A DNA stretch of 64,000 nucleotides from Haliovirga abyssi (GTDB lineage Bacteria; Fusobacteriota; Fusobacteriia; Fusobacteriales; Haliovirgaceae), in contig NZ_AP027059.1 in NCBI RefSeq assembly GCF_030295325.1, positions 62,001 to 126,000 of the forward strand, in the 5' to 3' direction. The position numbers and the translations under genes were made by a program. This document shows positions 3,210-29,083 of this stretch, in pieces. How positions within the stretch are numbered: the stretch's first letter is position 1; each line of letters begins with the position of its first letter. Below the pieces are notes generated by a model. That model was not told where the DNA came from. It worked only from the letters and a program-made list of their open reading frames with translations, and searched no databases.

Positions 3210-3770
3210 TTGATAGCAGAGAAAGATTACTGCTTAGATAAAAGCTTTGAAATAAATAATAATAATTTTAATTCAATTAGAAATATAAAACATAAAACAG
3301 CATTAATGCTCATATATTCATGTGGATTAAGAATTAGTGAAGCAGTAAATATAAAGACAGCGGATATAAACATTGACAGAGGATTAATAAATATAGTAAA
3401 ATCTAAGGGAAATAAAGACAGAGTGGTAACTTTATCAAAACAATTTTTAATAAAACTAGAAGAGTATAAAAAGATATATAAACCAAAAAAATATTTATTT
3501 GAAGGAGGAAATGGGGTTGAAAAATATAGTACAAGGAGTATTCAATCAGTATTTAAAAAAGCATTAAAAGATGCAAATGTAAAAAGAAATTATACTGTAC
3601 ATAGTTTACGGCATAGTTATGCAACACATTTGTTAGAAAAAGGAACAGATTTACGCATTATACAAGAGCTATTAGGACATAAAAGTAGTAAAACTACAGA
3701 AATTTATACTCATGTAAGTAATAAATTGTTGGCGAAGGTGGTAGCACCATTTGATGATATTGAATTGTAA
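3210..3770 (+). pseudogene. Tyrosine recombinase, catalytic domain only (XerC/D-like)
   Basis: Translation from a TTG at 3210 gives 186 residues that cover only the catalytic half of a tyrosine recombinase. The full active-site set is visible: R41 in GLRISE, K64 in the beta hairpin, H131xxR134 in HSLRH, H157 in LLGHK and Tyr166 in EIYTH. The N-terminal core-binding domain is missing and an in-frame TAA lies just upstream (3198-3200), so the gene is 5' truncated. The extra patch that marks integron integrases between the kinase-like hairpin and the second His box is absent; the spacing is that of XerC/D-like enzymes. It reads in the same direction as the cassettes. It could be the relic of the enzyme that moved this array, or an unrelated Xer-type recombinase. 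Confidence 0.75.
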
Positions 3771-3841: not shown

Positions 3842-3860
3842 GTTAGGCGAAACTCAAGTC
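3842..3860 (+). other. attI-like or attC R' boundary, start of first cassette
   Basis: GTTAGGC (3842-3848) fits GTTRRRY, and recombination would fall after the G. The 19 bases from here are the reverse complement, with one mismatch, of 6188-6206, which ends with the GCCTAAC box of the next attC. That pairing is expected between a cassette's 5' end and its own distal box. No full attC can be folded to the left, so this may be the attI of the array or a worn attC. Confidence 0.55.
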
Positions 3861-3928: not shown

Positions 3929-4663
3929 ATGAATCAAGATTTAAAAAGTATTATGCTTTCTTATATTGCAGGACTTTTGACTTCTGGAACGGTTGCATTT
4001 ATATCAAGAAAATGTAATTCTTTTGAAGAGTGCATTATGGCTTTAAAAATATTAGTAAAAGCAAGAAAAGAAGTCAGACTTAGTGTTTCATACTTATTTA
4101 GGATAGAAATTGAAAACAAGTATTTATTGATAAAAGGGAATAGAATTGAACAGTTTCAACCTGTTGGAGGGGTGTATAAAGCCTACAGAAGTGCCGAAGG
4201 TTTGTTTAAAAAAATTGAAGTAAAAAAAGATAACGGAATAGATATAGATGGAGCTAGTGAAAATGATTTAAGAATAAAAGTAAAGAGTAAAAATGTATTA
4301 AGTTTTATAAGGTGGTTTAAAGAAAGAAAAAATAGAGAAATTAATGTAAATAGAGAATTTTATGAGGAACTTGTAGTATCTAATTTTATTGATAAAAGTG
4401 TTCTTGAGACTTTTAGCCCTGAATACTTAAAAACAGTATACACTGATTTAAAATATTCGACACATTTTAAATGTTATGAGATTTTAATTTATGATATATT
4501 TGAAATTAAATTAGATAGTCAATATGAAGAAATGTTAAAAAACGAAATCAACACAAAAAGAGGAAATCTAATATTAGCTACAGATGATGAAATTGAAAGT
4601 GAAAACATAAAAATAGATGGCATATCTAAAAAAATTGGAGAACATAGTAAATATATAATCTGA
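3929..4663 (+). CDS. CBASS effector: membrane-anchored SMODS-associated NUDIX-like protein (Cap16-like)
   Basis: 244 residues. A hydrophobic helix at about residues 9-26 is followed by a short loop and a NUDIX-like domain: a beta segment RLSVSYLFRI, then KYLLIKGNRI and the hallmark QPVGGVYK (77-84). The canonical NUDIX box with its REXXEE helix is degenerate or absent, as known for the SMODS-associated NUDIX family. The gene lies 16 bases before a CD-NTase gene, and the pair fills one cassette. In CBASS, TM-NUDIX proteins of this kind are membrane effectors that respond to the cyclic nucleotide made by the partner; that role is transferred from the family, not shown here. RBS AGGAGAG lies before the ATG. 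Confidence 0.7.
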   Translation: MNQDLKSIMLSYIAGLLTSGTVAFISRKCNSFEECIMALKILVKARKEVRLSVSYLFRIEIENKYLLIKGNRIEQFQPVGGVYKAYRSAEGLFKKIEVKKDNGIDIDGASENDLRIKVKSKNVLSFIRWFKERKNREINVNREFYEELVVSNFIDKSVLETFSPEYLKTVYTDLKYSTHFKCYEILIYDIFEIKLDSQYEEMLKNEINTKRGNLILATDDEIESENIKIDGISKKIGEHSKYII

Positions 4664-4679
4664 TAAAAGGAGGGAAAAG

Positions 4680-6158
4680 GTGTTTATAGAATATGAAGAT
4701 ATAAATGATTTCTTTAATGAAATATCAAATGATTTAGATATTCCAGATTCTTACTATGAAAAAGCAGACAAAAGTTATAAATCACTTGGAAGTTTTTTGT
4801 TAAGAGATGATTCGTTAATAAAAGAGTATGCTCCAGATGTATTTCTGCAAGGTTCATTTAAGTTAGGCACAATGATAAAACCTATTTCAGAAAATATTCA
4901 TTATGACATAGACCTTGTTTGTAAGCTATCAAATATAAATAAAAATGAAATTACACAAGAAGATTTGAAGAAAAAAATAGGAAAAGAAGTTAAACAATAT
5001 GTAAAAACAAAAAATATGATAAACGAAGCTATAGATGGAAAAAGATGTTGGACATTAAACTACCACGATGAAGCACAGTTTCATATGGATATTTTACCTT
5101 GTCTAAATAACAGAAGAACATTTGAGGAACTTTTAGAAAAATACAGTATGAATACTGATTACAAGGAAGAAGCTATTGCTATTACAGATAAAAACTCAAT
5201 ATATTATAAAGTTATAAGCGATGAATGGGAAACCAGTAATCCTAAAGGGTATTATAGATGGTTTATGAAAAAAATGAACTTTGAAGATAAAAAAAGGAAA
5301 TTTGCGGAACAATTAATGGAAAGTGTAGAAAACATTCCAGACTATAAAGTAAAGACACCTCTACAAAAGGCAGCTCAAGTATTAAAAAGACATAGAGATT
5401 ATAGTTTTAAAGGAAAAAAAGATAAGCCTTCATCAGTTGTAATAACAACGTTATTAGGATTGACATATAATGGTTCGGAAAACATACTTGACATTATAAG
5501 TAATATGATTGAAAATATACATTTATTTTTAATAGAAAAAGATGGAAGGTATTATCTAACTAATCCTGTTAATCCATTAGAGAATTTTACAGATAAATGG
5601 AATACAAACAAGAAAAGAGCTTTTTTTAGATGGATAAATACGGTTAGTGAAGATTTGCTTTTTTACAATAAAAAAATTAATTATTATGGTGATAATGTTA
5701 TTGATAAAATGAAAGAAATATATAATATAAAGAAAAGCAAATATATAAAAGGTAGTAGTGAGTTGATAAAAAAAGAAAAGCATATAAAAAGAACAAAGTG
5801 GAATATGCTTAACAAAACAGAAGTTGATATAATAGCTTATAAAAAAGAGTCAAAAGATATTATTTCGAAGAGGTTTAAGAGTGGAGAAATTGTAAAAAAA
5901 AGTTCAGATTTAAAGTTTAAGGCAAATGCTAAAAATATAAAAGATTATGAAATGTTTTGGCGAGTAACAAATACTGGTTATGATGCAGAAATTGAGAACA
6001 ACTTAAGAGGGGATTTTTATGAAAGTGAAATTATAGAAGGAGATAAAGTAAGAGAAGAAAAGGCAAAATATTTTGGAAGTCATTTTATAGAATGTTTTTT
6101 GATAAAAGATAATGATTGCTATGGAAAAAGTGATGTATTTGTTGTTAATATACTTTAG
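4680..6158 (+). CDS. CD-NTase (CBASS cyclic-oligonucleotide synthase) with AGS-C sensor domain
   Basis: 492 residues, GTG start with AGGAGGG nearby. The N-terminal nucleotidyltransferase core shows GSFKLGT (58-64), the metal-binding pair D76/D78 in YDIDLV and the third acid D137 in FHMDIL. The middle is an OAS-like helical domain. The last 90 or so residues (FWRVTNTGYDAE, RGDF, then GSHFIECF and a final VFVVNI) match the adenylate/guanylate/SMODS C-terminal sensor domain. The enzyme should make a cyclic di- or trinucleotide on phage infection and activate the adjacent membrane NUDIX effector. No Cap2/Cap3 or HORMA/TRIP13 genes follow, so this would be a minimal type I CBASS. Which nucleotide it makes cannot be read from sequence. 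Confidence 0.82.
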   Translation: MFIEYEDINDFFNEISNDLDIPDSYYEKADKSYKSLGSFLLRDDSLIKEYAPDVFLQGSFKLGTMIKPISENIHYDIDLVCKLSNINKNEITQEDLKKKIGKEVKQYVKTKNMINEAIDGKRCWTLNYHDEAQFHMDILPCLNNRRTFEELLEKYSMNTDYKEEAIAITDKNSIYYKVISDEWETSNPKGYYRWFMKKMNFEDKKRKFAEQLMESVENIPDYKVKTPLQKAAQVLKRHRDYSFKGKKDKPSSVVITTLLGLTYNGSENILDIISNMIENIHLFLIEKDGRYYLTNPVNPLENFTDKWNTNKKRAFFRWINTVSEDLLFYNKKINYYGDNVIDKMKEIYNIKKSKYIKGSSELIKKEKHIKRTKWNMLNKTEVDIIAYKKESKDIISKRFKSGEIVKKSSDLKFKANAKNIKDYEMFWRVTNTGYDAEIENNLRGDFYESEIIEGDKVREEKAKYFGSHFIECFLIKDNDCYGKSDVFVVNIL

Positions 6159-6199
6159 GTTAAATTTTTAGTGAGCGTTAACCTGTCGACTTGAGATTC

Positions 6200-6354
6200 G
6201 CCTAACCTCGAGGTACACGACATACGAATCGGCAAGCCCTAGCGGGACGTATCTAAGCTCGCTGGCTACGCAAAATGGGGAAAAGATATTGGGTACAGCT
6301 CTCTACGATACTCTAATGCCTCTCGCACGTCGTGTTACCTGAATACCGTTAGGC
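6200..6354 (+). other. attC site 1 (end of CBASS cassette)
   Basis: R'' box GCCTAAC (6200-6206), inner arms GGTACACGAC (6212-6221) and GTCGTGTTACC (6329-6339) that pair with one extrahelical base, R' box GTTAGGC (6348-6354). Length 155 bp with a long variable loop. The unpaired base in one arm and the box order are the standard attC features that set strand choice. R'' is the exact complement of the cassette's 5' box at 3842. Confidence 0.85.
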
Positions 6355-6548
6355 AAGATTGTTGAGCGCGGTCGCGCCCCCCAATCTTGCCTAACGCCGT
6401 GGCGGGCTTCCGCCCGTCAGTTAGCCACCGATTGTTCCGCTAACGCTCCACAACCGTCGCCTAACTGACGGGTAAACGAAATCAATTCGCCTAAGAAAAC
6501 TAAAGTTTTCTAAGACTCATTGACTTTTCGCTTACCCGCCACGGCGTT
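6348..6548 (+). other. Gene-less cassette and attC site 2 with nested palindromes
   Basis: The cassette starts at GTTAGGC (6348) and has only about 40 bases before its own R'' box GCCTAAC (6389-6395), so it carries no gene. Its first 14 bases are the perfect reverse complement of 6382-6395. Outer arms GCCGTGGCGGG (6396-6406) and CCCGCCACGGC (6535-6545) pair perfectly. Inside lies a second perfect 12-bp inverted repeat (6413-6424 with 6461-6472) holding further GTTAG/CTAAC boxes, and a small hairpin at 6493-6510. R' is cut after GTT (6546-6548) by a group II intron. Confidence 0.8.
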
Positions 6549-7919
6549 GTATGTCCAGCAAAGCTGGGCATATCCAGTGGGTGAAAGTCCCACCAGAGTA
6601 AAAGTCAAAGCTCTGTAGCATGAATGGCAATGTGGTGGAAAACCTAAACATTGAAGTCCATTGACAAAGGAAGTTTTTTAATCATCATAATTCTATAAAT
6701 ACTTCTGAGGTAATTAAAAAACTTCTTAGGTATCTAAAGGATATCGAGCAAGTATACAGACCGTAACATCAGTGAACGCATATTAGCTTCGAAAGCGGGT
6801 TAATTTGGTGGTTGAGCTTTTAGCGCCTAAGCGAAAACAGAATGAATAAATGAAATTGACTGATACATTTATTTACACCAACGGAGTATTAGCGATGGTA
6901 TGTATACAAGGATATACTTGGAACTGGAGAAGCCTTCCTTCTTCCTGTGAGAAATCACTTGAGCAATTAAATTCTATAACTGCAAACTAGAAAATGAATT
7001 GAAAAAGAAGATGGTGGCGGATGGGTTCGTAGTAGCAAAAATTATAAAGACAACATAACTTCATATAGCAAAGGGACTCTACTATTAATAAATTCTCTGA
7101 CATATAGGAGGTAAGGGTGAAATGATAAAAACATCCATAAATTTACAAGAGTTGAGAAAGAGAATATATTTTAAATCTAAAGAGGAAAAAGCAAAAGAAG
7201 TAACCAAGCAAAAAGGTAAATATTATGAGCTAGATTATGCTAGATTTGCAGATGATTTAGTAGTAACAGTATCAAGTCATTCAAGTATGAGAAGGTTGTT
7301 AAGTAAGGTAATTGAAAGGTTGAAAGAAGAATTTGAGAAAATAGAGGTAACAATAAATAAAGAGAAGTCAAGAGTAGTAGATTTGAAAAAAGGTGGAGTA
7401 ATAAACTTTTTAGGATTTACAATGAAAAGGCGAAGGAATAAAAGTGGGAAATGGGGAATACTGACAATACCACAATCAAAGAAGAGGAAAGGATTGTTAG
7501 AAAAGATAAAAGAATTAATAAGAAGACATAGAACACTAGGAATATTCCAAATACTGGTAAATGAACTAAATACAACATTAAGAGGTTGGGTAAATTATTT
7601 TTCAATAGGGAATTCATCAAAGTGTTTTTCATATGTAAGAAATTATGTGGAGAAGAAATTGAGAAGGTATCTAATGAAGCAACGAGGGAAAAAGGGATAT
7701 GGCTGGAAAAAATGGAGTAATGATTGGCTGTATAATGAAATAGGGTTATTTGATAACTATAAAGTAAAATATATACCAGAGTGAAAGTTAAACCAGAATA
7801 AACTTATATGATTTGAAAAGAAGTTAATAGGAAAGCCGTATGCGGGAGAACCGCACGTACGGTTTGAGGTGGCGGGTTCTGAAAACATAGTTTGGCTGTG
7901 CGTCAGAGCTCGACCCTAC
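6549..7919 (+). mobile_element. Group II intron 1, inserted inside an attC R' box
   Basis: The 5' end reads GTATGTCC, a variant of the usual GTGYG, followed by domain I hairpins. Domain V is clear at about 7833-7865 (CCGTATGCGG, GAGA-type loop, CCGCACGTACGG) and the element ends in a domain VI stem with CTAC at 7919. Both ends are fixed by an independent test: joining GTT (6546-6548) to the bases from 7920 restores a 19-base cassette start that is the reverse complement of 8378-8396 with one mismatch. About 220 bp of it (6806-7020) recur at 27830-28039. Its reverse transcriptase is truncated, so the copy is probably not mobile alone. Confidence 0.85.
7122..7784 (+). pseudogene. Truncated group II intron reverse transcriptase/maturase
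   Basis: 220 residues beginning inside the reverse transcriptase. The catalytic FADD box (RFADDLVV) is present near residue 46, followed by RT motifs 6-7 (INFLGFTM) and the maturase X domain (LRGWVNYF, then the basic KKLRRYLMKQ). RT motifs 0-4, including the first catalytic Asp, are missing although the intron RNA on both sides is retained, so this is an internal deletion. No HNH endonuclease domain follows. An RBS-like GGAGG precedes the ATG, but the product could not be an active polymerase; maturase help in splicing cannot be excluded. Confidence 0.85.
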
Positions 7920-7958
7920 ATATGACATTTTGGACAATTGATTATAAGGAGTAAAAAG

Positions 7959-8363
7959 ATGAATAAAAAATTACTTATTATCAAAATAACCCTTTGGTGG
8001 GGCATTGTAGCTGATTTATTTGAAACTATCAGAATGATTTTCCCACAACTCTTTATTAAAACTACAGGTGCGACTTTATCATTAAATGATGGAATTAGAT
8101 TTACATTATTATATGGTGCTCCTGTAATGTTAGGTTGGATAATTATCTTGTTTTGGGCAAGTCGGAAACCAATTGATAGAAGAGGTGTGTTTTTATGCCT
8201 AATGCCTGTAATTATATCCTATTTTATTGTTGAAATAATGAGTGTAAATTTAGGAAGACTAAGTTTAAATCAAACTATTCCAACATTCATACTTCAATCT
8301 GTATTATTGAGTTTAACAATAATCAGCTATATTTTTGCTCGAGAGATGTCAAAAAAAAGATAA
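7959..8363 (+). CDS. Small integral membrane protein in a cassette
   Basis: 134 residues from the ATG at 7959, which follows AAGGAG at a good distance; an earlier in-frame ATG at 7938 has no such site. Four hydrophobic segments are visible at about residues 7-27, 48-67, 77-97 and 108-128, joined by short charged loops. No catalytic motif and no family are recognised. It is the only gene of the cassette that begins at the intron-split box and ends at attC site 3. Small multi-pass proteins are common cassette cargo; no function is claimed. Confidence 0.75.
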   Translation: MNKKLLIIKITLWWGIVADLFETIRMIFPQLFIKTTGATLSLNDGIRFTLLYGAPVMLGWIIILFWASRKPIDRRGVFLCLMPVIISYFIVEIMSVNLGRLSLNQTIPTFILQSVLLSLTIISYIFAREMSKKR

Positions 8364-8389
8364 ATAGTACAGTGAAAGTCCAAAACGTC

Positions 8390-8488
8390 ATATAACAAGG
8401 AATATGAGATTACGCCTTCGGCTCCATCCAAATTGCCTTTGGTCGCAAGCTCCCGACGGAAACTTCTCATATTCCTGGAACGTTAGCT
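8390..8488 (+). other. attC site 3
   Basis: R'' ATATAAC (8390-8396), perfect 11-bp inner arms GGAATATGAGA (8399-8409) and TCTCATATTCC (8465-8475), R' GTTAGCT (8482-8488). The stretch ending at R'' (8378-8396) complements the intron-split 5' end of its own cassette at 18 of 19 positions. Confidence 0.85.
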
Positions 8489-12421: not shown

Positions 12422-12589
12422 ACATAACAGCGTATAAATGCAATCCTTTCGCCGTGTGTGCTATCGCACATATTCTGCACGATCGGCAGTTCGCAAGCTC
12501 ATGCAAGTAAGCGTAAATATTGGGTATGCCTCTCTTTGCCATATCGGGAAGACGGCTCAAGGACTGCACTTATACGCGAGACGTTATAC
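12422..12589 (+). other. attC site 6
   Basis: R'' ACATAAC (12422-12428; ten bases GACACATAAC complement the 5' box at 11673), perfect arms GCGTATAA (12430-12437) and TTATACGC (12570-12577), R' GTTATAC (12583-12589). Length 168 bp. Confidence 0.85.
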
Positions 12590-12704
12590 AACAGTGCGAC
12601 CAGCCCTTGAAATAAAAGGGATAAGCTACATTTTAGGCTGTCTAAGTCGCTTTAAATAAATATAGACCTTTGGACTACCCTATCCATTTGGGGTAACTCT
12701 ACCT
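12590..12704 (+). other. Remnant cassette start without a gene
   Basis: Begins at the R' of attC site 6. Contains no reading frame with a start and RBS. It runs into the direct repeat AACTCTACCT (12695-12704) that flanks the miniature element. The cassette's own distal box (expected GTATAAC) is not found downstream, so its end has been lost. Confidence 0.5.
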
Positions 12705-12920
12705 CAATGTCATCAAGCTAAGGATTTTATAAAAACTCTACTCCTCCCTTGTTGTAGGTTTCTCTTATCTAAGAGAAACCTATAGCGTGGATATTTGGCT
12801 TTTTTAATGCTTTTTTCTCAATATTCTGCACTTTAGTTTTCTCTTAGCCAAGAGAAAACGCTAAGAAGGAAGGAGTTGGTCTTTTGATTTGCATTAATTC
12901 CCCTTAGCTTGATGACATTG
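12705..12920 (+). repeat. Miniature inverted-repeat element copy 1 (IS4/IS231-like ends)
   Basis: Perfect 19-bp terminal inverted repeats: CAATGTCATCAAGCTAAGG at the left and its complement at the right end (12902-12920). A 10-bp direct repeat AACTCTACCT flanks it (12695-12704 and 12921-12930). No transposase; the 216-bp interior has two hairpins built on CTCTTA/TAAGAG. The ends resemble those of IS231/IS4-family elements, which also make 10-12 bp duplications; that assignment is from memory of the family. Confidence 0.8.
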
Positions 12921-12934
12921 AACTCTACCTACAG

Positions 12935-15000
12935 GTGCGTGACTGGTAACGGTTGGGTGCTAAGCTGTAGGGACAATATGAATAATCTGTTAGCCTATAG
13001 GCGGAGGTTTTGTTAGAGTAAATATATTTCTATGGTTAACATATGTGAACTAATGCAAGCTTCGTTAAACGTGGGCAGTGAAATAAGGCTGATACACTGT
13101 GACCAAAAGGTGTAAGATGTGGTTGATAGTCTTTTTCGTACCTATCAACAAATGGACTAATATCTTCGGAGTAAAGTTAGAACCTAAGGAAATATGAATT
13201 GGCTAAAATGTAGAACTGGGTAAGCCCTACAGTCTCTCATTTGAGTAGGTTTTCTGTGAAGAGAATACAATGATTGGAGAGTAAAGGAACAGTAGAGAAA
13301 GCGAATGACATTTTGTAATGAAATGTATAGAGGTTCGAAATTTGCCTCATTCTGAAAGGAAGCATGGTTATCTAAGGCAGGAAAGGATTGAAACTTTATA
13401 AATATAACAAGCCAAATAACTCAAAATCATAAGGAGTGGGCGACTATAGACAGACCAGAAGCAACTTTCAAATGGGAAATAATTGATTGAACAGAAGCCG
13501 GAAGAAAAGTTAGTAAACTTCAATCACGGATAGCTAAAGCAATTATTAAAGGTAAAAATGCTCTTGTAAAGAAATTACAATACTTACTTACAAAATCTTA
13601 CTATGCAAAATTATTAGCAGTAAAGAAAGTAACATCAAATAAGGGAAAAAGAACATCAGGAGTAGATAAAGAAATATGGTCAACTCCAGCCCTTAAGTAT
13701 ATCAACGCCCAAAAATTAACTAACAAGAAATACAGGGCAAAACCTCTTAAAAGGATATTAATACCGAAATCCAACGGAAAAACAAGACCTTTGGGAATAC
13801 CAACTATGTTTGATAGAGCAATGCAAGCATTATATTCATTAGCATTAGACCCGATATCAGAAAGCACAGCAGATAAAAACTCTTATGGATTTAGAAAATG
13901 TAGAAGTACAAACGACGCAGCAGATCACATTTTCAAATGTTTAGCAAAAAAGGACTCTGCTCAATGGATTTTAGAAGGTGACATAAAGGGGTGCTTCGAC
14001 AATATAAATCATAAATGGATTATTGATAATATACCATTAAATAAGAAAATTTTAAAACAATTTCTTAAAGCAGGATTTATATACAAGAAAGATGTCTTTC
14101 CTACCAAAGAAGGAACACCTCAGGGTGGAATAATCTCCCCCATCTTAGCAAATATGACGTTGGATGGTATTGAAAAAATGATTAAACTAAAATATTGGAC
14201 AAGCCCAAGTGGAAATTCGATTAACAGAAAATATAACAGCAAAAATCGAATAAACTTTATTCGATACGCTGATGACTTTGTTGTAACTTCAAGAAGCAAA
14301 GAAATACTTGAAGACATAAAATCAATGATAAAAGAATTTCGTGAAACTAGAGGCTTGGAGCAATCAGAAACGAAAACTTTAATAACTCATATTGATATTG
14401 GGTATGACTTTTTAGGTTTTAATTTCAGAAAATACAAAGGGAAATTATTAATTCAACCATCAAAGAAATCAATTAAGAATATTGTTAAGAAGATAAAATC
14501 CGTTGTTAAAAAGCATACTACTTCAAATCAAGATGAATTGATAAAATCATTAAATCCAATAATAAGAGGCTGGTGTAACTACCATAATAGTATCTGCTCA
14601 AAATTAACCTACCAAAAATTAGATAGACACATTTTCTTTTATCTGTGGAGATGGGCAAAACGAAGACATCAAGATAAGTCTAAGCAATGGATAAAAGATA
14701 AGTACTGGAAGACTATTAGTACTAGAGATTGGATATTTTCTGATGGAGAAAACAAGTTAATGTTTGCAACAGAAACAAAAATAATCAGACATTGTTTAAT
14801 TAAAGGTAACGCAAATCCTTATCTAAGAGAATATGATGATTACTATTAAAAGAATTGCTGCGAAGATAAGAGCATATATTTAATTTATTATTGTTGCCAA
14901 TTTGAAAGTTGGTTTTAGATAGCTTGAGCTGTATGACGTGAAAGTGTCACGTACAGTTCTGATGGGGGAAGGGCGAAGTAATTCGCCTGACCTACCAGAC
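12935..15000 (+). mobile_element. Group II intron 2
   Basis: Starts with GTGCG (12935), the canonical 5' end, four bases after the flanking repeat of the miniature element. Domain V is clear at 14926-14959 (GAGCTGTATGACGTG, GAAA-type loop, CACGTACAGTTC) and a domain VI stem leads to CTACCAGAC at 15000, the likely 3' end. About 500 bases of ribozyme precede the reading frame. It encodes a nearly complete reverse transcriptase that carries one in-frame TGA. It differs from intron 1 in sequence and ORF type, and its insertion point is not an attC box. Confidence 0.8.
13443..14849 (+). pseudogene. Group II intron reverse transcriptase with in-frame TGA
   Basis: The frame is continuous from about 13443 to 14849 except for a TGA at 13488-13490, at the place of a conserved Trp in the N-terminal EIIDWTEAGRKV-like motif; no good ATG precedes it. 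Downstream are all RT blocks: GVDKEIWS, RPLGIPT, GFRKCRST, WILEGDIKGCFD (first catalytic Asp), TPQGGIISPILAN, FIRYADDFV (catalytic pair), DFLGFNF, then the maturase X domain with IIRGWCNYH. The protein stops at NPYLREYDDYY, where related proteins continue into an HNH domain, so that domain is absent. A product could only start internally (ATG 13800 or so), lacking RT motifs 0-1. Confidence 0.8.
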
Positions 15001-27829: not shown

Positions 27830-28039
27830 TGGTGGTTGAGCTTTTCTAAGCGAAAACAGAATGAATAAATGAAATTGACTGATACATTTATTTACACCAA
27901 CGGAGTATTAGCGATGGTATGTATACAAGGATATGCTTGGAACTGGAGAAGTCTTCCTTCTTCCTGAGAGAAATCACTTGAGCAATTAAATTCTATAACT
28001 GCAAGCCAGGAAATGAATTGAAAAAGAAGATGGTGGCGG
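27830..28039 (+). mobile_element. Fragment of group II intron 1 type
   Basis: Nearly identical to 6806-7020 of intron 1 (same order of TGGTGGTTGAGC, AACGGAGTATTAGCG, AAGATGGTGGCGG), with a six-base deletion near the left end and a few substitutions. It lacks both intron ends and domain V, so it cannot splice. It lies directly before the racemase gene. Confidence 0.88.
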
Positions 28040-28071: not shown

Positions 28072-28764
28072 ATGAAGACAATAGGTTTAATAGGTGGTAT
28101 GAGTTGGGAATCATCAGCAGAGTATTATAGAATAATAAATGAAATTGTAAAGAATCAATTAGGAGATTTACATTCTTGCAAGTCTATTATGTATTCTGTA
28201 GATTTTGCTGAAATCGAGAAGCTGCAACATGATGGAAAGTGGAATGAATTGACTAGCATAATGATTAAAGCAGCTCAAAGTCTTGAAAGTGCTGGAGCAG
28301 ACAATCTTATTATATGTACAAATACTATGCACAAAATGGCTAATGAAGTTCAAGAAAGTGTTAGAGTGCCTTTGATTCATATAGCTGATGCTACCGGCGA
28401 GTGTATAAACAAAAAGGGATATAAAAAAGTAGGGCTTCTAGGAACTAAATTTACTATGGGAGAAGAATTCTACAGGGGGAGACTTGAAGAGAAATTTGGA
28501 ATTGAAGTTCTTGTGCCATCTGAAGAAGATCAAAAGGTAGTTCATAAAATAATATATGATGAACTTGTTAAAGGTGTGATAAATGAACAATCAAGGAAAG
28601 AGTACAAAAATATAATAGATAAGTTTAGGAGTCAAGGAGCCGAAGGAGTTATACTTGGGTGCACAGAGATTCCATTGCTGATTAAGCAGGAAGACAGTAG
28701 TATCGAGATATTTGATACAACAATGATTCATGCTAAAGCTGCAGTTGAATCAGTTTTGAGGTGA
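28072..28764 (+). CDS. Aspartate/glutamate racemase family protein
   Basis: 230 residues. GLIGGMSWESS at the N-terminus, the first catalytic Cys82 in ICTNTMH and the second Cys197 in LGCTEIPLL, i.e. the two-cysteine, cofactor-free racemase fold of the YgeA/aspartate racemase group. It would interconvert L- and D-amino acids in the cytoplasm; Asp or Glu is the usual substrate. RBS GGAGG precedes the ATG. An attC follows, but the cassette's 5' end has been replaced by the intron fragment. Confidence 0.85.
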   Translation: MKTIGLIGGMSWESSAEYYRIINEIVKNQLGDLHSCKSIMYSVDFAEIEKLQHDGKWNELTSIMIKAAQSLESAGADNLIICTNTMHKMANEVQESVRVPLIHIADATGECINKKGYKKVGLLGTKFTMGEEFYRGRLEEKFGIEVLVPSEEDQKVVHKIIYDELVKGVINEQSRKEYKNIIDKFRSQGAEGVILGCTEIPLLIKQEDSSIEIFDTTMIHAKAAVESVLR

Positions 28765-28782: not shown

Positions 28783-28853
28783 GTATAACAGCGAGTTGGC
28801 GACATGGACAGGAACAAGAATGTGATACGTCGTCAACACACGGAATGTTATAC
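28783..28853 (+). other. attC site 11
   Basis: R'' GTATAAC (28783-28789), arms GTTGGCGAC (28795-28803) and GTCGTCAAC (28829-28837), R' GTTATAC (28847-28853). Length 71 bp. Confidence 0.83.
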
Positions 28854-29083
28854 GAAAGACTCAAGTAATTTATTGAAGAAAATTGGAAGTATGTTATGAA
28901 AGCAGTAATCTTAGATATGTATGGTGTGATATTAAAAGAACCAGGAGAAGGCTTTATATCACATGTGCATAAGACATTCCAGAATTAGACGAATCAGTGA
29001 TTTTTAAGTATATAGATATGGCTGATGTGGGAACAATAACATCATTAGAGATATTTGAGGCGCTTGGATACAAGGGAGACCTA
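28847..29083 (+). pseudogene. Duplicated, broken copy of the HAD cassette start
   Basis: From the R' box GTTATAC onward this repeats 24008-24244 with few changes, including leader, RBS region and the start MKAVILDMYGVIL (ATG 28896). One T is lost in the ATTTTCAG tract (near 28976), shifting the frame after about 27 codons, and similarity ends at 29083. It is a 5' fragment of a second HAD cassette. Confidence 0.9.

Follow-up and report, generated by a model that had tools for sequence, protein, structure and literature searches.

The integron-like array of Haliovirga abyssi carries a group II intron that splits the R' box of an attC site, which raises the question of what class this intron belongs to and whether its position reflects a preference for such sites. 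The window analysed here is a stretch of 64,000 nucleotides from a genome of 2.73 Mb (two contigs, G+C 28.7%) that is the sole member of its family in the order. The array begins at about 3.2 kb of the window with a recombinase gene, followed by cassettes with attC-like palindromes between them (Table 1). Its sites have R'' and R' boxes, an imperfect palindrome and a cassette 5' end complementary to the cassette's own R'' end. This complementarity reaches 18/19, 16/19 and 18/19 positions in cassettes 1, 2 and 3, and only 12-13/19 over the same length in the later cassettes tested, where the assignment rests on the R'' core. More attC-like sites were read by eye at 21.3, 22.6, 28.8 and 30.0 kb. 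The cargo between 3929 and 11579 includes a CBASS-like nucleotidyltransferase with its NUDIX partner and a TIR-domain protein, and a family search with the product of the cassette 3 open reading frame returned no family.

The recombinases of these arrays fit the NF040815 model and miss TIGR02249 as well as the model stretch around 180-235, and thus "integron-like" is the safer word; the arrays may not be classical integrons. In none of the five genomes did TIGR02249 reach its cut-off, and a gap remained around model positions 180-235. For instance, the recombinase of the Halonatronum genome (G098) scored 237 bits with NF040815 (cut-off 220) and 213 with TIGR02249 (cut-off 265). XerA-type recombinases without the IntI-specific stretch were observed at window 3210-3770, G098:C8:84519-85331 and G100:C12:59188-60006, the latter two with an additional N-terminal region.

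Table 1. Positions of the array, intron and exon-pairing features in the window.
Feature	Position	Strand	Description
Tyrosine recombinase	3210..3770	+	Beside the array, truncated at the N-terminus; "integron integrase" of XerA type (NF040815), full IntI model absent
attI-like site	3842..3848	+	GTTAGGC; its 19-mer pairs 18/19 with 6188-6206
Cassette 1	3929..6158	+	SMODS-associated NUDIX gene (3929-4663) and SMODS/DncV-like nucleotidyltransferase (4680-6158), CBASS-like
attC1	6200..6354	+	R'' GCCTAAC 6200-6206, R' GTTAGGC 6348-6354
attC2	6389..6548	+	Intron lies within its R' box; basal stem of 14 bp reaching to GTT
IBS1	6543..6548	+	GGCGTT
Group IIB (g2) intron	6549..7919	+	1371 nt
Rfam RF02003 match	6575..6771	+	Part of domains I-IV, 92 bits
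EBS2	6795..6799	+	GCGGG, 3/5 pairs with -9 to -13
EBS1	6822..6828	+	AGCGCCT, 6 pairs with GGCGTT, one G.T
EBS3	6889	+	T, pairs with +1 A (7920)
Intron-encoded protein	7122..7784	+	220 aa; N-terminal part followed directly by RT5 (FADD) and the maturase domain
Domains V and VI	7831..7919	+	Rfam RF00029, 44.6 bits, model end exactly 7919
ATAT	7920..7923	+	Remainder of the R' box of attC2, also the beginning of cassette 3
Cassette 3 open reading frame	7938..8363	+	141 aa
Cassette 3 end	8378..8396	+	R'' ATATAAC 8390-8396; 18/19 complement of rebuilt R' side
attC3	8390..8488	+	R' GTTAGCT
Second group II intron	12594..15000	+	Protein groups with CL1 Tel4h, YADD; 8 nt after GTT of attC6 R' (12583-12585)
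Internal fragment of first intron	27834..28039	+	95% identical

The original prediction placed a group II intron at 6549-7919, took both of its ends as fixed and located it between GTT and the rest of an attC R' box, and all three points were borne out. Both Rfam matches, to domains I-IV and to domains V-VI, lie on the + strand, the strand of the cassettes. The 3' end is given by the end of the RF00029 model and also by another copy in the genome, truncated at its 5' end (C1:1740978-1741712), whose last base is the same one. At the 5' end, GTATGTCCAG can be aligned with GTGYGTCCAG, the sequence with which the relatives start, in every case directly behind an exon matching the EBS1 of that relative. 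Damage is an unlikely origin of the GTATG start, as the clade has GTATG or GCATG in common. Excision of the intron joins GTT to ATATGAC and rebuilds the R' box GTT|ATATGAC of attC2. The rejoined 19-mer, GTT (6546-6548) plus ATATGACATTTTGGAC (7920-7935), is the complement of 8378-8396 at 18/19 positions; an equally good match was present in 8 of 3000 random 160-nt stretches of the window, and the chance expectation for the exact 19-mer, with up to three mismatches allowed, is 0.01 occurrences in the window. Folded as single-stranded DNA, attC2 gave -54.1 kcal/mol (z -10.9) for the bottom strand and -42.8 kcal/mol (z -8.6) for the top strand, better folding of the bottom strand being usual for attC, and the intron lies at the foot of the basal stem. 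The further claim that insertion followed cassette integration is likely, and was worded too firmly. It is supported because the EBS1 partner GGCGTT spans the cassette junction, with GGCG from attC2 and TT from the next cassette; it is less firm because the downstream cassette begins 2 nt before the intron, and a recombinase could carry both together.

The same prediction had left the class of the intron in doubt and had proposed a phylogeny of the reverse transcriptase. Both the pairing with the exons and the protein now settle the class as IIB. A scan of 84,980 species genomes yielded 80 relatives of the intron protein, and those with readable ends have a fixed stretch of domain I complementary to the last 6-7 bases of their own 5' exon. 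When every intron column was compared blindly with every exon position across 59 distinct introns, seven columns covaried with positions -1 to -7 (EBS1), five with -9 to -13 (EBS2) and one with +1 (EBS3). An EBS1, an EBS2 and a single-base EBS3 in domain I are the IIB scheme, and the intron is thus of class IIB; domains D1-D4 and D5/D6 of the group II core are present. Most Halanaerobiales copies have the EBS1 AACGTC, which pairs 6/6 with GACGTT, and an EBS3 T against A. In the window copy, AGCGCC faces GGCGTT, a compensating change at -5 (A-T to G-C). The EBS2 pairing is poor across the whole clade.

The RT5 motif of the window protein is YARFADD. FADD occurs in 79 of 94 sequences, and YADD is found only in the references and in the second intron of the window. 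According to Toro and Martinez-Abarca (2013; PMC3552965), FADD in RT5 marks group g2, which belonged to the former class F, and class F is described as having IIB RNA. The intron-encoded protein is accordingly assigned to group g2 (ex class F) on its FADD motif. In a quick tree the proteins of the attC-inserted introns form one clade (SH-aLRT 99), and the IIC references fall outside the family.

These results bear on the idea that the element is a IIC-attC intron like those already known, merely turned around. The position in attC would suit such an intron, and a top-strand IIC insertion was reported once, in Enterobacter cloacae (cited in PMC7923331). However, IIC introns have no known EBS2 (PMC7923331), and here an EBS2 and a one-base EBS3 covary in domain I, EBS1 extends over 6-7 nt and the FADD-type protein lies outside the IIC references, which rules out the IIC class. 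Neither a class C protein, nor a IIC ribozyme, nor a bottom-strand insertion was found at this locus, and we regard a reversed IIC-attC intron as extremely improbable.

The closest relative outside the genome, with 72% identity, belongs to Halonatronum saccharophilum (L023), and the closest relatives are in Halanaerobiales. At the Halonatronum intron, too, GTT stands in front and the remainder of an R' box behind; the 3' exon begins with ATCCGACATTCTAGAC, the cassette ends GTCTAGAACGATCGGATAAC, and the rebuilt R'' is found 972 nt downstream. A search of the order of Halonatronum gave close homologues in three further genomes (G099, G100 and G105) and fragments in others, and in the wider class around it (59 genomes) full or long proteins were confined to the same four genomes. 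No further copy was found in 98 genomes of other Fusobacteriota at the threshold used, viral contigs contained no relative, and plasmid DNA searched with the intron gave short domain V matches only.

The sublineage that includes the window intron offers 18 readable 5' junctions, 13 of which are at the GTT| of attC sites whose two arms can both be seen (window 1, G099 1, G100 4, G102 1, G103 1, G105 4, G106 1), all in cassette orientation. Another two (G098:99283 and G106:C60) end GATGTT or GACGTT with a left arm that is not clear, two lie at one locus outside attC in Halonatronum, ending GGTGCT, and in one a tandem copy stands directly behind another copy. These calls were made by reading both arms, because a hairpin-arm score poorly separates junctions from random CGTT sites: 9/18 junctions scored above the 95% level, and some of the random CGTT sites are themselves attC. 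The 3' exons that were read start with A, except that of the first tandem copy, where the G of the next intron follows. Besides the window, a complementary R'' at the cassette end was found for three further 3' junctions (one in G098, two in G105). The Halonatronum locus ending GGTGCT (L126, G098:C8:608500-612500), which counts against homing to attC, holds two partial intron copies, and the EBS1 of one of them pairs with two G.T wobbles.

An ordinary IIB intron without any preference for attC could have arrived at this site by chance. The sister g2 introns point in this direction, as they occupy many kinds of site, each matched by the intron's own EBS1. However, the nearest relatives share the same attC position in several Halanaerobiales genomes and in the clade EBS1 is almost invariably directed at GACGTT, which makes a chance insertion very unlikely. 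The complementarity of EBS1 alone does not explain the choice of sites, since G105 has 116 GACGTTR sites and yet its intron copies are confined to two cassette regions; contributions from the hairpin, from the protein or from selection against damage at other places are possible.

Recurrence could also be only apparent, if a single old insertion in a cassette had been multiplied by recombinase-driven shuffling or homologous recombination and not by repeated homing. Many copies do lie in the same arrays, and the intron sits just inside the downstream cassette, so that a recombinase would move both. The integron crossover is at G/TT, and an intron downstream of it stays with its own 3' cassette. 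At most copies, however, the 3' exons differ (ATAAGAC, ATATGAA, ATCTGAC, AGGTGAC, AGGTGAA, AGCCGAC, AAACGGC, ATCCGAC and ATATGAC), and different 3' cassettes mean separate insertions, an outcome that shuffling cannot yield. The tandem copy, moreover, fits re-insertion at an occupied GTT. Multiplication of one insertion is in our judgement very unlikely.

We consider it very likely that the window element is a copy, with its protein gene partly deleted, of a IIB (g2) intron from a lineage that homes to attC on the top strand. In such a lineage the intron RNA would recognise the R' side of attC on the top strand, which is sense to the cassettes. EBS1 would pair with six bases ending GTT (GACGTT in Halanaerobiales, GGCGTT here) and EBS3 (U) with the first A of the next cassette, with a small contribution of EBS2. 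Reverse splicing, presumably during retrohoming, would then leave the intron between GTT and the remaining R' box, sense to the cassettes, an orientation from which it could splice out of cassette transcripts. After insertion GTT is followed by the intron start GTATG, which is near the GTTRRRY core of R', and the interrupted attC may retain its function.

The window copy itself is probably not autonomous, judging from its coding sequence: RT0-RT4 are missing from its protein through an in-frame internal deletion. In the close relatives L023, G099 and G105 the protein is complete and likewise ends after domain X, and the absence of RT0-RT4 here is a secondary loss. The genome contains three other group II proteins, namely that of the second window intron, that of a truncated copy and one that is 43% identical, and no intact close homologue that could serve as a helper was found among them. 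Copies with a deleted open reading frame are common in Halonatronum too. The window copy may have moved in trans or may have lost its protein after insertion. Its internal fragment at 27834-28039 lacks the EBS1 bases and lies directly upstream of a gene (28072-28764), behind which comes an attC-like site.

The IIC-attC introns (S.ma.I2 type; Quiroga, Centron, Roy, Leon) also land on the attC sites of integrons and CALINs at a GTT motif adjacent to the stem. They differ in being of class C, in having an IBS1 of 3-4 nt and a stem-loop that replaces IBS2, and in inserting at TTGT/T of the bottom strand, against the direction of the cassettes (PMC7923331), whereas the window intron combines a IIB ribozyme and a g2 protein with top-strand insertion and a 6-nt EBS1 pairing. 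Other IIB introns are known from the cassette arrays of halophiles (Sonbol and Siam 2021; PMC7923331): UHB.I2 (CL1, IIB1), which lies in cassette orientation just after an attC, and H.ha.F1/F2 (class E), whose protein is broken as here. These are single cases with other protein classes, for which no conserved exon, fixed position or recurrence was shown (PMC7923331), as opposed to the clade described here, with its repeated base-exact insertion and an EBS1 that explains it. The g2/class F introns, M.xa.I1, W.e.I5 and Sg.ce.I1 among others, share FADD in RT5 and IIB RNA with this clade; their reverse transcriptase/maturase has no endonuclease domain, as appears to hold here as well, and the part of the source describing them that we used (PMC3552965) reports no attC insertion.

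We found no report in the open-licence literature of a IIB lineage with repeated base-exact insertion into attC. The targeting of attC was previously known as a speciality of one class C lineage, plus isolated IIB cases, and the present data point to a second kind of intron that targets attC, on the opposite strand. Access of a IIB lineage to attC through the other strand, with ordinary EBS pairing, suggests that group II introns repeatedly find a safe haven in integron-like arrays. The lineage is also a natural source of an attC-specific IIB intron for targeting work, and with it the role of hairpins for IIB introns becomes directly testable.

In the wider family, where starts were sought with a pattern requiring GTGYG and GTATG starts could be missed, 26 of the 57 introns whose junctions could be read are inserted in a domain V belonging to another group II intron, and the 3' strand of that domain also ends GGTT. 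Several of them (L032, L039, L046, L083 and others) are inserted after ...ACGGTT in domain V of other group II introns and form twintrons. Since domain V and attC are both stable hairpins with a 3' strand that runs up to the insertion point and has GTT as its last bases, one tentative possibility is that attC homing arose from domain-V-homing g2 introns through a few EBS1 changes. If so, the use of structured targets, thought to be special to IIC introns, would extend to IIB introns; GTTGTAT might be a usable R' box, which would keep the cassette movable with the intron as a passenger at its 5' end, and the second intron (GTT+8), an unrelated IIB intron of CL1-like type, could be a parallel case.

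In G098, three introns of the same type as this second one have their start 8 nt behind GTT, within the 5' end of the first intron (GTT GTATGTCC|), and the Halonatronum relative is thus a twintron. In G105 such an intron starts 8 nt after the 3' end of the first intron, and a sixth start, in G098, does not follow this pattern. The EBS1 of the second window intron does not match its own 5' exon. Examined by eye, one of its loops, TTTTCGTA, has no fit to that exon, ATACAACA (12583-12593), and would fit GTTATACGAAA at the attC-like site near 28.85 kb (about 28847-28860). Inside the second intron, upstream of its Rfam-matched part, a short element (12705-12920) is bounded by the terminal inverted repeats CAATGTCATCAAGCTAAGG and shows AACTCTACCT as a target duplication of 10 bp; ends resembling these were seen near 20.08 kb and at 30.08-30.21 kb, beside attC-like sites.
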